Shown: one piece after another, positions 12,195-57,593 of the stretch
How the letters are laid out: the number at the start of each line of letters is the position of its first letter
Numbering within the stretch: position 1 is the stretch's first letter
NCBI RefSeq assembly: GCF_000025325.1
Contig: NC_013743.1
Coordinates: forward strand, 2,294,001-2,358,000
Origin: Haloterrigena turkmenica DSM 5511
Lineage (GTDB): Archaea > Halobacteriota > Halobacteria > Halobacteriales > Natrialbaceae
Reading direction: 5' to 3'
Length of the DNA: 64,000 nt
Notes under the pieces: model-generated
Databases searched by the model: none
What the model saw: the letters and a program-made list of their open reading frames with translations, nothing else
What the model was told of the DNA's origin: nothing
Program-made: the position numbers and the translations under genes

Positions 12195-12742
12195 TGGCGA
12201 CAGGACCACGATACAAAGTTCCGATGCGGCGTCGCCGTGAGGTCCGGACGGACTACCATCAGAGGTTGCGCCTGCTGAAATCGGGCAAACCGCGCCTCGT
12301 CGCTCGCAAGAGCAACAAGCACACTACGGCGCAGCTGATAACCCCCGGACCACAGGGCGACGAGACGCTCGCGAGCGCACACTCGAGCGATCTCGAGGAG
12401 TACGGTTGGGAAGCCCCCACGAGTAACATTTCCGCGGCGTACCTGACCGGCCTGCTGGCCGGCCAGCGAGCCGTCGAGGCCGGCGTCGAGGAAGCGGTAC
12501 TCGACATCGGTCTCAACACCGCGACACCCGGCAACAAGGTGTTCGCGGTGCAGGAGGGGGCCATCGACGCCGGCCTCGAGATCCCGCACAACGACAGCGT
12601 GCTCGCGGACTGGTCGCGTACCCGCGGCGAACACATCGCCGAGTACGCCGAGCAGCGAGACGAGCCGCTCTACAGCGGCGATTTCGACGCAACGGACCTA
12701 CCAGAACACTTCGACGAGGTACGAGAGGCGATTCTCGAATGA
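12194..12742 (+). CDS. rpl18: Large subunit ribosomal protein uL18
   Basis: This 182-residue protein is archaeal L18, a 5S rRNA binder. It opens with [20 protein letters not shown] and carries [19 protein letters not shown] in the RNA-binding region. The C-terminal part is acidic. Its end overlaps rps5 by four bases. Confidence 0.95.
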
Positions 12743-53145: not shown

Positions 53146-54390
53146 ATGCTTCCGCTCGTCGCGTTCGCGTTCGTACTCATCGCACTCGCGGTCGCCCTCG
53201 AGATCGTGTCGTACGCGTCGCTCAAGCGCATTCCCGCAGTGGCGACCGAGGAGTTCCCGGAGATCGACCGGGAACTGCTGGGCAAGTTCAGCAGTTTCGA
53301 CCCCGAACTGGGCTGGGTGCCACAGCCCAATCAGGAGAAACAGAAGGACACCGGCGACCACCTCCCCGGCGAGGAGCTCCGGACGGTCGTCACCTACTCG
53401 ACCGACGAGTACGGGAGCCGGGTCTGCTACGCGGCTGATCGGGACGAAGACGCGGACGTCACCGTCTCCACATACGGCGACTCCTACTGTTTCTGCCGGG
53501 AGGTCAACGACGACGAGACCTTCCAGCACTACATGGCCCAGGAACTGGACACGCACGTCGCCAACTACGGCGGCGGCAACTACGGGCTCGATCAGGCACT
53601 GCTGCGCATGCAGCGCCAGTATCCCGAGGAGGAGACCGACTACGTCTTCGTCGTCGTCACCGCCTCCTCGATCGCCCGCATCCTCTCCGTCTGGAAACAC
53701 TACCAGGAGTTCGGCAACATCCTCGCCGTCAAACCCCGGTACGTCCTCGAGAACGGCGAGTTAGAGCGGATCGACAGCCCCGTCGACGAGAAGGAGGACC
53801 TGCTCGATCTCGAGTCCAAGGCCGACTTCCTCCGGGAGTACGACTTCCACTACGACCACTGGTTCAAACCCCACTTCGCGTCGGTGCCGTACACGAGCGA
53901 CTTCCTCGACGACCCCGAGTACCTCCGGTACGCCGCGATCACGGGCTGTAAGGAACTCGAGCGCCGAGTCGGCCGCTCGATTCCGGGCGTCGACTTCGAC
54001 GCCGCTCAGACCGAGTCGGTCCTCCGGATGGAACAGCCCCGCGTGCGCTACCACGAGCGGCTGTTCGAGACCCACGAGTACCTCTTCGACGCGCTGATCG
54101 AGGAGTTCGTCGACTACGCCGACGAACAGGACTTTCAGCCCGTCTTCGTGATGGTCCAACAGCTCCGGTACGCCAAGTACGAGTCCGAACACGGCCCGAT
54201 CTACGGCGACCTCGTGGATCGGTTGGGCGAGAAGTACGACGCCCTCGAGACCGTCGACATGGCTCGCCATCTCGATCCTGACGACGGCGTCGAGTCGCTG
54301 TACGTCGAGCGCGGCGAAGGCGGCCACTACAGCCCCGAGACGAATCAGGAGATCGCCGAAGTGCTGACCGACATCGTCGAGGAGGACTAG
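53146..54390 (+). CDS. Membrane-anchored SGNH/GDSL-hydrolase-like protein
   Basis: The 414-residue protein has one N-terminal TM helix (residues 2-24) and a large acidic globular domain. SGNH blocks can be recognised: the GDS at 111-113 in YGDSYCFC (nucleophile Ser), the glycine/Asn block GGGNYGLDQALL near 142-153, and a C-terminal histidine block GGHYSPETNQEIA near 392-404, as in AlgX/acetyltransferase-associated SGNH proteins. Orientation of the domain is not certain. Possible role: esterase or acyl transfer on surface glycans; not proven. Confidence 0.7.
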   Translation: MLPLVAFAFVLIALAVALEIVSYASLKRIPAVATEEFPEIDRELLGKFSSFDPELGWVPQPNQEKQKDTGDHLPGEELRTVVTYSTDEYGSRVCYAADRDEDADVTVSTYGDSYCFCREVNDDETFQHYMAQELDTHVANYGGGNYGLDQALLRMQRQYPEEETDYVFVVVTASSIARILSVWKHYQEFGNILAVKPRYVLENGELERIDSPVDEKEDLLDLESKADFLREYDFHYDHWFKPHFASVPYTSDFLDDPEYLRYAAITGCKELERRVGRSIPGVDFDAAQTESVLRMEQPRVRYHERLFETHEYLFDALIEEFVDYADEQDFQPVFVMVQQLRYAKYESEHGPIYGDLVDRLGEKYDALETVDMARHLDPDDGVESLYVERGEGGHYSPETNQEIAEVLTDIVEED

Positions 54391-54475
54391 GTTCGCCGGC
54401 TCTTTCTTCGTCGATCCGTTCTCAGCTCGCCACTCAGTGTATTCCGACGCTACCGACCCGTTAGTCTACGGGTGT

Positions 54476-54879
54476 GGTGGCGCGCGCTGTGTCGCGGTGA
54501 GTGGACTCGAACCGCGACACGAAGCCGTGCGAGGGATGAGCGAACGACCGCAGGGAGTAAGCGAATCGGTTGGGGAGGGAGTGGCGATCCCTCGCTGCCA
54601 GCATGAGCAGAACGCTCGTCTTCGTCATCAGTAGCTGTATAGAGAGTAGAGAAGCCCACTACTTGGGACCGAAACCACGCAACCGCGCTGCTATCGTGGC
54701 AACAGTGACTGCCACTCCCTCCCCAACCGATTCGCTCGTTACACTCGCTCATCCCTCGCACAGTGTCGTCGGTCGATCCTCGCTTTCGTTCACGGCTCAC
54801 TCCGTTCACCGTTCACTTTCGAGGTGCTCACTCCGTTCGCACCTCGCTTTCCTCGGATCGACCAACAGCGCGCGCCACC
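54476..54879. repeat. 404-bp nested inverted-repeat element
   Basis: The ends are a perfect 15-base inverted repeat, GGTGGCGCGCGCTGT at 54476-54490 and its complement at 54865-54879. Inside are further arms: a 17-base pair at 54527-54543 with 54745-54761 and a perfect 25-base pair at 54561-54585 with 54711-54735. The centre (54586-54710) is unpaired by eye. No transposase is encoded. CGGGTG occurs just outside both ends (54469-54474, 54886-54891), a weak candidate target duplication. The element lies between the 3' ends of two convergent genes, so it could be a MITE-like sequence or a bidirectional RNA structure. Confidence 0.75.
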
Positions 54880-54898
54880 GCATGCCGGGTGACCGAAA

Positions 54899-54933: not shown

Positions 54934-57399
54934 TCAGGCGTCGACGGCGGGCAGCGCAAAGGAGAACGTCGTCCCCTCGCCGGGTTCGGAGTCGATCCAG
55001 ATGGTCCCTTCGTGGCGCTCGATGATGCGCTGACAGAGCGCGAGCCCGATCCCGGTGCCGTCGTACTTGTCGCGGCTGTGCAGGCGCTCGAACACCTCGA
55101 AGACGCGGTCCTGATCGTCGGGATCGATGCCGATCCCGTTGTCCTCGACCGAGACGATCCACTTGGACCGCGCCCGCTCGGCCGTGATCTCCACCTGCGG
55201 CGGCTCGTCGCCGCTGTACTCGAGAGCGTTGCTCACCAAGTTTTGAAACACCTGCTGGATCTGGCTCTCGTCACCGCGAACGCGGGGCAGCGACTCGGCG
55301 GTGATCTCGGCGTCGGTCTCCTCGATTTTCATCTGCAGGTCCTCGCAGACGGCGTCGACGACGGTGTCCAGATCGACCGGCTCGAACGGCTCGCCCTGCG
55401 TGTCGACCCGGGAGTAGGCCAGCAGGCCGTCGATCATCTTGCGCATGCGCTCGGCGCCGTCGACGGCGAACTCGATGAACTCCTCGCCGTCGTCGTCGAG
55501 TTCGTCGCTGTACCGACTCTCGAGCAGTTGGAGGTAACTCGAGACCATCCGCAGGGGTTCCTGCAGGTCGTGGGAGGCGGCGTAGGCGAACTGCTCTAAG
55601 CGCTCGTTGGATTTCTCGAGTTTGCGCTGGTACTCCTTGCGCTCGGTGATGTCGTGGAAGTAGATCGACAGTCCCGACTCGGAGGGGTAGACGTTGTACT
55701 CGAGCCAGGTGTCGAGATCCTCGGCGTACACCTCGAAGTTGACGGGCTCTTGGGTCTCCATCGCCTGCTGGAACTGCTCCCGGTAGATCCCCTCCGCATC
55801 GTCGGGGAACGTCGTCCAGACCTTCCGCCCGAGGACGTCGTCCCGGGACTGCTGGAGGGTCTCGGCGGCCTGCTCGTTGAGGTGGGTAAAGCGCCACTCG
55901 TCGTCGAGCGCGTAGAACGCGTCGGAGATCCGGCCGAGGATATCGCTCAGTTCGGTCTCGAGTTCGCTCTTTCGCTGCTCGAGCTGGCGCTCGCGGCGTT
56001 TCAGCTCGGTGATGTCCTCGGCGGCCGTCACGACGCGTTCGACCCCGCCGTCGGGGCCGTGCAGCGGCGTCGCGTTCACGCGAAATTGGAGCAGCTCGTC
56101 GTCGGGGGGATCGACGACGAGTTCCTCGTTGAACACTGGGTTGCCGGTCTCTAGGACCCGCGCGGCCGGCATCTCGTTCGTCGGCAGCCGCTCGCCGTCC
56201 GAGTCGTAGATCTCCCACTCGCCGACGTCGTCGGATTCGCCGATGAACTCCTGGTCGGAGAGACCCAGCGACTCCTGTGCGCGCTGGTTCGTCAGTATCG
56301 TCTCGCCCTCGGCGTTCTGGACGGCGATCGCGATCGGCGCCGTCCGCAACAGCTTCTCGGTCTGGTTGTACTCCCGACGGAGGAGCCGTTCGCGCTCCTT
56401 CTGGTCGGTGATGTCGTCGATCGCGACGACGATCCGTCCGTCCTCGGCCTGATCGTCGTCGAGCGGTGCGGCGTTGAGCGAGAGCCAGCGGCGGCCGATT
56501 CCCGGGACTTCGACCTGCCGCTGGGCGTCGTACACCGGCTCGCCGCGCTCGCGGGCGCGGGCCCACGGCTGCTCGTCGGCCGGGATCGGCTCCCCGGCGG
56601 CGTCGTAGAGCTCCCACGACTCGAGGCTGTACGTCTCGATGGCCGAGTCCTCGATCGCGAAGTGCTCGAGCATCCGGCGGTTCGCGCGGACGAGCGCGTT
56701 GTCCTCGGTCACCACGCCGATCGTGATCGGCACGGTCTCTAAGATCCGTTCGGTGAGGTCCCGTTCCCGGCGGAGTTGCTGTTCGTACTCGCGGCGCTCG
56801 GTCATGTCGCGGGTGACTTTGGTAAAGCCCCGCAACTGACCGCCGTCGTCCCGAATGGCGGTGATGACGACGTTCGCCCAGAACCGCGTGCCGTCCGAGC
56901 GGACGCGCCAGCCTTCGTCCTCGGCTCGTCCCTCCGCCGCCGCGGTCTCGAGGTTCGTCTGGGGGACGTCGTCGGCCATGTCTTCGTCGGTGTAGAACGT
57001 CGAGAAGTGGTTGCCGACGATTGCGTCCTCCGAGTAGCCCTTGATTCGTTCGGCCCCTTCGTTCCAGCTGGCGACGGTGCCGTCGGGATCGAGCATGAAG
57101 ATGGCGTAGTCTCGGACGGCGCTGACGAAGGCGGCGAACTCCTCCTGTTCGGACCGCCGGTCGGGGTCCGCGTTCGCCATCTCGTCAGGCCACCAGATCC
57201 GGGTCGAGTCGTCGATCCGCTTGACGCGGAGTTCACCCCGATCGACGAGTTCCTCGAGTCCCTGGCGCGCGGGACCCGGGGAACAGTCCAACCGATCGGC
57301 GACCTCGACGGTCGTGAGGGGAGTGGGAGACCGCTCGGAGTGCGAAAAAGCTCGCCGGACGTCCTCCCCCGACACGCCCGCCGAATCTGAAGATCCCAT
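54934..57399 (-). CDS. Multi-PAS sensor histidine kinase with N-terminal HTH
   Basis: The 821-residue soluble kinase begins with a winged-helix-like domain (about 5-60, LTTVEVADRLDCSPGPARQG). Four PAS domains follow, each ended by motifs such as KVTRDMTERREYEQQL, IDDITDQKERERLLRR and HDITERKEYQRKL. A HisKA domain has the phosphoacceptor His in SHDLQEPLRMVSSYLQ, and a HATPase domain has NLVSNALEYSG, VEDNGIGIDP and GTGIGLALCQ. No TM helix is present and no response regulator gene is adjacent. The ATG at 57399 is used; longer in-frame starts exist upstream to 57462. Confidence 0.9.
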   Translation of the reverse strand: MGSSDSAGVSGEDVRRAFSHSERSPTPLTTVEVADRLDCSPGPARQGLEELVDRGELRVKRIDDSTRIWWPDEMANADPDRRSEQEEFAAFVSAVRDYAIFMLDPDGTVASWNEGAERIKGYSEDAIVGNHFSTFYTDEDMADDVPQTNLETAAAEGRAEDEGWRVRSDGTRFWANVVITAIRDDGGQLRGFTKVTRDMTERREYEQQLRRERDLTERILETVPITIGVVTEDNALVRANRRMLEHFAIEDSAIETYSLESWELYDAAGEPIPADEQPWARARERGEPVYDAQRQVEVPGIGRRWLSLNAAPLDDDQAEDGRIVVAIDDITDQKERERLLRREYNQTEKLLRTAPIAIAVQNAEGETILTNQRAQESLGLSDQEFIGESDDVGEWEIYDSDGERLPTNEMPAARVLETGNPVFNEELVVDPPDDELLQFRVNATPLHGPDGGVERVVTAAEDITELKRRERQLEQRKSELETELSDILGRISDAFYALDDEWRFTHLNEQAAETLQQSRDDVLGRKVWTTFPDDAEGIYREQFQQAMETQEPVNFEVYAEDLDTWLEYNVYPSESGLSIYFHDITERKEYQRKLEKSNERLEQFAYAASHDLQEPLRMVSSYLQLLESRYSDELDDDGEEFIEFAVDGAERMRKMIDGLLAYSRVDTQGEPFEPVDLDTVVDAVCEDLQMKIEETDAEITAESLPRVRGDESQIQQVFQNLVSNALEYSGDEPPQVEITAERARSKWIVSVEDNGIGIDPDDQDRVFEVFERLHSRDKYDGTGIGLALCQRIIERHEGTIWIDSEPGEGTTFSFALPAVDA

Positions 57400-57593
57400 A
57401 TATTCTACTATCGATACCGATCCATAAGACTTCGCTGTCCGGTCCGCCATACGTCGGGTCACGTGGGGTCGAAACCGACGGGAAAGTACTGGCGCCGATC
57501 GGGGAGAAACCGGCGTCGGTTGGCCGCGCCGTGAAAAAACCGCGTCAGTAACCGGGCCATCGTTGACGGGTGTCCTTCCGGTAGAGGGTGGTA

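Follow-up and report, generated by a model that had tools for sequence, protein, structure and literature searches.

In the 64-kb stretch of the Haloterrigena turkmenica genome analysed here (the window), the intergenic region between two convergent genes is occupied by a large inverted repeat that holds no plausible gene, in agreement with the original prediction of a non-coding element at such a location. Three exact pairs of inverted arms were identified within it, of 15 nt (54476/54865), 17 nt (54527/54745) and 26 nt (54560/54712). The predicted 15-base perfect ends and the predicted 17-base inner arm were thus recovered exactly, while the second inner arm, given before as 25 bases, is 26 bases long. 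The folding energy of a strand of the inverted repeat lies 12.8 SD below that of 100 dinucleotide shuffles (z -12.8). The rest of the window contains a single exact inverted pair of at least 15 nt within 450 nt, at 12474/12565 inside a coding region; the repeat to which it belongs (12474-12580, at least 16 nt exact) is not part of the family described here.

Alignment of copies from the genome resolved the inverted repeat into two tail-to-tail copies of a ~150-nt unit, each with its own start, TGCGGTGGCGCGCGCTG, and its own end, GCCACGATAGCAGAACGC. The arms, which had been taken for a single nested set, are instead the conserved parts of these two separate units. A structure was drawn from 30 copies (alignment A1), on which a covariance model (R1) was also built. 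In this structure, one strand of the unit forms four helices: P1, which closes around a variable hairpin, P2, followed by P3 and a terminal hairpin, P4. The P2 hairpins lying between the conserved parts differ in the window pair, whose features are as follows.

53146..54390 (+): upstream gene of the convergent pair, encoding a 414-aa protein without a Pfam family.
54473..54621 (+): left repeat unit, full length (R1, 140 bits, E 1.3e-36 in the window; one of the 30 copies that built R1).
54476..54490 (+): 5' end motif GGTGGCGCGCGCTGT of the left unit (15-nt end), containing the 5' strand of P1 (exact inverted match at 54865-54879; P1 columns in A1).
54490..54520 (+): variable hairpin P2 of the left unit (TGTCGCGGTGAGTGGACTCGAACCGCGACA; limits approximate), with a stem sequence that varies among copies (all nine P2 pairs changed on both sides).
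54534..54567 (+): helix P3 of the left unit, GAT-GA-GC-GA-..-GA-GC-GA-ATC (limits approximate; covariation and GA columns in A1 columns 69-102).
54560..54585 (+): longest exact arm, 26 nt, comprising the end of P3, the G-rich GGTTGGGGAGGG core and the start of P4 (exact inverted match at 54712-54737).
54622..54676 (no strand): spacer between the two tails (gap between the two R1 matches).
54677..54882 (-): full-length right repeat unit, its P2 longer and branched (R1, 116.6 bits, E 2.8e-30 in the window; a copy outside the R1 building set).
54712..54737 (-): conserved core of the right unit (exact inverted match).
54794..54866 (-): P2 of the right unit, a variable hairpin enlarged with nested GA-loop hairpins (limits approximate; from the sequence, direct repeats D1/D2 and the fold).
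54865..54879 (-): 5' end motif GGTGGCGCGCGCTGT of the right unit (exact inverted match).
54934..57462 (-): downstream convergent gene, an 842-aa PAS/HisKA/HATPase_c sensor kinase.

In the 30-copy alignment 91.4% of cells were paired, and 17 of the 30 pairs had changed on both sides. The number of double-change cells, 124, was not reached by any of 500 shuffles (47.3 +/- 4.8), and the covariation signal was lost when the partner strand was slid. Similar values were obtained for 92 copies from other genomes (91.6% paired; 377 double-change cells versus 133 +/- 13 shuffled), a set that was aligned to the 30-copy model and is hence biased toward it. Within P3, covarying 2-bp Watson-Crick steps alternate with near-invariant tandem GA/GA mismatches. 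Because palindrome correction would erase such mismatches, this helix is more simply read as selected for its fold, and the retention of the mismatches speaks against conversion or palindrome correction there. For P2, conversion or palindrome correction, and not selection, may account for part of the covariation, since some P2 stems have been swapped whole between species. On the strand listed for the units, G-T mispairs outnumbered A-C mispairs by 218:40, an excess above that of each of 300 shuffles, which indicates that this is the folding strand; the same tolerance is expected of RNA as well. The tetraloops of P2 were GNRA in 4 of 19 cases, and this low share is a weak hint of DNA over RNA. 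The core GGTTGGGGAGGGNGTGG (54566-54582 in the window, and the same core in all units) was near-invariant across the alignment. Judged from the alignment, its pattern is compatible with a two-layer G-quadruplex, a fold that the molar KCl inside the cell would promote.

Haloterrigena turkmenica 4kT has one main chromosome and six circular plasmids (PMC3035258). In the 5,440,782-bp genome analysed here, the main chromosome (contig C1) accounts for 3,889,038 bp. A BLASTN search of the genome with a 416-nt stretch covering the element returned 105 partial matches on C1, many of which corresponded to one half of it, in either orientation. With the covariance model, 108 chromosomal matches were found at 78 sites, so that the further copies which the original prediction proposed to look for do exist, and the six plasmids together gave one weak match (contig C4). 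This bias toward the chromosome has a P of ~1e-10 (expected chromosome share 0.715), and TnpB genes of this genome are distributed the other way, with 8 of 13 on plasmid contigs C2-C4. Single units occupy 63 of the 78 sites; the remaining 15 are two-unit sites, arranged tail to tail in every case, and one head-to-head case was seen elsewhere (L195). Sites were evenly spread (7-12 per chromosome eighth) and balanced between strands, and the 78 sites showed no replication-strand bias.

The repeat family was matched in 180 of 292 sampled haloarchaeal genomes, many of the matches being weak outside the host's own taxonomic family, and copy number among haloarchaea ranged from none to more than 100. 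A scan for the exact core identified at least 80 loci in many named haloarchaea; among the matches listed, those from complete genomes were all titled chromosome. Among plasmid records, only 10 matched a consensus; several copies lie on one of these, a Natrinema plasmid of 987 kb. The exact core was absent from IMG/VR contigs, and phage records gave no match. Rfam 15 contained no match to the window element under lax filters and at E values up to 1. In the haloarchaeal-repeat literature, the only relevant description found was that of PATE, SMR and MITE elements in one paper (PMC3119063). The family appears to be undescribed and to be present in most of the sampled haloarchaeal genomes.

Gene context was assessed at 72 sites from other genomes, with orientation and overlap counts that rest on our own simple codon-usage gene caller. 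None of the 72 sites overlapped a predicted gene. They fell between convergent genes in 29 cases, tandem genes in 35 and divergent genes in 8, versus 122, 306 and 113, respectively, among all gene pairs of the loci; convergent pairs were thus enriched (P 2e-4) and divergent pairs depleted (P 0.03). Single units between tandem genes were sense in 17 cases and antisense in 17 (5:8 in a separate count). This equality led us to reject, as a general rule, a sense 3'-UTR element with one unit for each convergent gene. The related proposal of an RNA acting on both convergent transcripts is not supported, given the same counts and the many units that lie between tandem genes. No conserved sequence was seen by eye in the 25 nt preceding 55 units.

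Comparison with congeners revealed that units stay at the same intergenic sites across species, as singles or as tail-to-tail pairs, and gain or swap hairpins. For ~30 sites, congener G004 has a unit at the corresponding position; the flanks are 82-95% identical there, and single units keep their orientation. The arms are likewise conserved in relatives, a lack of which had been named beforehand as evidence against the element. Within the genome, the long match closest to the copy in the window reached only 84% over half the length, which gives no sign of a recent burst. At the 154.3-kb site (L266, G000:C1:154314-154731), ~270 nt of extra nested perfect hairpins were found where G004 (L056) has a plain unit. 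The hairpin modules of this unit recur in many other units, and may constitute a small mobile repeat in their own right. The unit at 3355702 differs by one hairpin between two species. At the shared site G000:C1:416776-416925, compared with L054, a different paired hairpin stands in place of the whole of P2 and the remainder of the unit has been kept, which suggests conversion between copies. The P4 loop at 3713607 is close to the reverse complement of itself in the other species.

Inversion was assessed for the pair in the window and for those at 3020080, 829539, 1610257 and 1481289. The window pair has been inverted in place between species, as seen against three congeners with the same flanking genes. 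Identity to G004 was 91% for the inverted and 70% for the unchanged orientation, and identity to G002 was 95% and 56%, respectively. Against G001 the outer hairpins were exchanged and the inner part was not, which places the inner breakpoint differently. An inverted fit was likewise the better one for the pair at 3020080 (76% versus 58%) and, by a modest margin in two genomes, for that at 829539 (75.5% versus 63%, and 77% versus 70%). The pair at 1610257 is not inverted.

Evidence of mobility was sought in flanks, in species-specific absences and at transposon loci. No target-site duplication was found: across 13 two-unit flanks, the mean longest shared k-mer was 3.0, versus 3.08 in shuffles, and the CGGGTG motif that had been put forward as a duplication overlaps the left end of the window element and does not flank the element in congeners. 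At four sites where the unit or pair is absent from a congener, the adjacent intergenic DNA differs too, the congeners being ~90% identical and so too distant for a clean comparison; no clean insertion or transposition event was seen at the species-specific absences examined. The genome contains 13 TnpB genes, and only one decayed Y1 transposase (TnpA) gene was found. None of these 14 loci carried the unit (best E 0.94 in an unfiltered covariance search; HMM and BLASTN results at chance level), and a search confined to these TnpB/TnpA loci found no transposase partner. A 38-nt partial match at L252, at the end of a TnpB reading frame, was judged to be due to chance, and no link to IS605/TnpB ends was found in this genome. 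Inverted ends of 15-18 nt belong to the two-unit form, single units, the majority, having one such end. A candidate gene-carrying version, from 1849719 (+) to 1853879 (-), was set aside on its translations, the listed part consisting of ordinary-looking genes with no evident transposase. A tRNA-derived origin had been suggested by the motif GGTTCGAGTCC on the reverse strand of one P2, and was rejected on the grounds that P2 varies among copies and that no tRNA gene lies there.

These observations bear on the proposal that the element is MITE-like: a cut-and-paste transposase would move it by its terminal inverted repeats, which would be the 15-nt ends. The high copy number and the two-unit form with its conserved inverted ends speak for such an element. 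Given the missing target-site duplications, the predominance of single units (63 of 78 sites), the lack of clean empty sites at the loci examined, the depletion on plasmids, the lack of the unit at the ends of the TnpB genes tested and the absence of a recent burst among copies at different sites (the best long match being 84% over half the window copy), we regard it as very improbable. From the original alternative of a MITE-like element or a structured RNA, what endures is that the repeat is dispersed and the nucleic acid structured; the MITE, and an RNA that serves two convergent transcripts, are not supported.

A structured RNA in a broader sense would be transcribed as part of a 3' UTR or as a small RNA, its fold being a terminator, a stability element or a protein-binding site. 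Strong strand-specific covariation, G-U tolerance and the location of units near gene 3' ends, with a convergent bias, are consistent with this. Against it stand the even division of tandem-gene units between sense and antisense (17:17 and 5:8), the lack of visible conservation in the 25 nt before 55 units and the lack of an Rfam family at the window locus, and we consider it unlikely. A site of chromosome architecture that benefits the host, its palindromes bound by a topoisomerase, an SMC or a nucleoid protein much as BIMEs are bound by gyrase, would explain the restriction to the chromosome. The even, strand-balanced spread of 78 sites, their near-absence from plasmids and the retention of the same sites between species would fit such a role, which is nevertheless doubtful to the point of being a minor contender: a copy number between none and over 100 among haloarchaea rules out a general requirement, several copies lie on the 987-kb Natrinema plasmid, and no binding protein is known.

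The window element is best explained as a pair of units from an ancient, non-coding, chromosome-bound family of dispersed haloarchaeal repeats. While the anatomy of the unit is well supported, the role of its fold is not. We favour, with a probability of roughly 55% for the account as a whole, a palindromic repeat that acts at the DNA level and persists at tolerated sites, because units show no sense preference, invert and turn over their hairpins. The grounds for preferring DNA to RNA are weak, and consist of the lack of a sense preference, the lack of upstream conservation by eye and a P2 that is not GNRA-rich. In this DNA-level account, the fold would work as that of a hairpin repeat like ERIC/BIME or PATE elements, in a strand-specific manner. 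The family would have spread in the past by a hairpin-recognising route with a transposase acting in trans, and would now be mostly static. Inversions would arise through exchange or template switching between inverted arms and not through a site-specific recombinase, as the breakpoints in the arms differ between species. Insertion would be tolerated chiefly where neither a gene nor a promoter is cut, which would explain the convergent bias. More tentatively, the units might represent a class of strand-specific covarying elements, built of 2-bp steps that alternate with tandem G-A mismatches and growing by nested hairpins, that is selected on haloarchaeal chromosomes and acts through its fold, as an architecture site or as RNA; inversion in place would then belong to its biology. 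The repeat nearly avoids plasmids in a genome with over a quarter of its DNA on them, and in its paired form it flips in place. Three questions thereby become testable: what ties a repeat to one replicon, how archaea handle palindromes of 400 bp, and which form is under selection, a folded DNA strand or an RNA.

Several known systems share parts of this architecture. HEARO/IscB and TnpB omega-RNA elements are structured stretches of ~150 nt that are dispersed, often without a gene of their own. The units resemble them in length, structure and dispersal, but have no Rfam match at the window locus up to E 1 and do not accompany the TnpB genes of this genome. The closest kinds are ERIC/BIME-type repeats and the haloarchaeal PATEs. 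ERIC/IRU sequences and BIMEs (paired REP) of enterobacteria are multicopy intergenic imperfect palindromes that lie near gene ends and form hairpin stems, and BIMEs contain opposed paired units and are bound by gyrase. In architecture, the family is like these in its many intergenic imperfect-palindrome copies outside genes (78 sites; 0 of 72 overlaps), and unlike them in that its units are modular multi-hairpin folds with tandem GA mismatches that accumulate nested hairpins.

PATEs are palindrome-associated transposable elements of Haloquadratum walsbyi; their mobility was inferred from strain-specific insertions, and the palindromes resemble the ends of IS605-type transposons (PMC3119063). 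Most sites examined here are common to a congener, strain-specific insertions were not found, and no match to IS605-type ends was seen at the 14 loci tested in this genome, 13 of TnpB and one of a decayed TnpA. PATEs share with the units the absence of a transposase, near-terminal palindromes (here P1/P2 at one end and P4 at the other), the lack of a target duplication and heterogeneous copies, and the hairpin additions seen here recall, by description, the insertions of SMR-A into PATEs (PMC3119063). A covarying helix with GA mismatches and invertible tail-to-tail pairs do not appear in the account of PATEs consulted here (PMC3119063).
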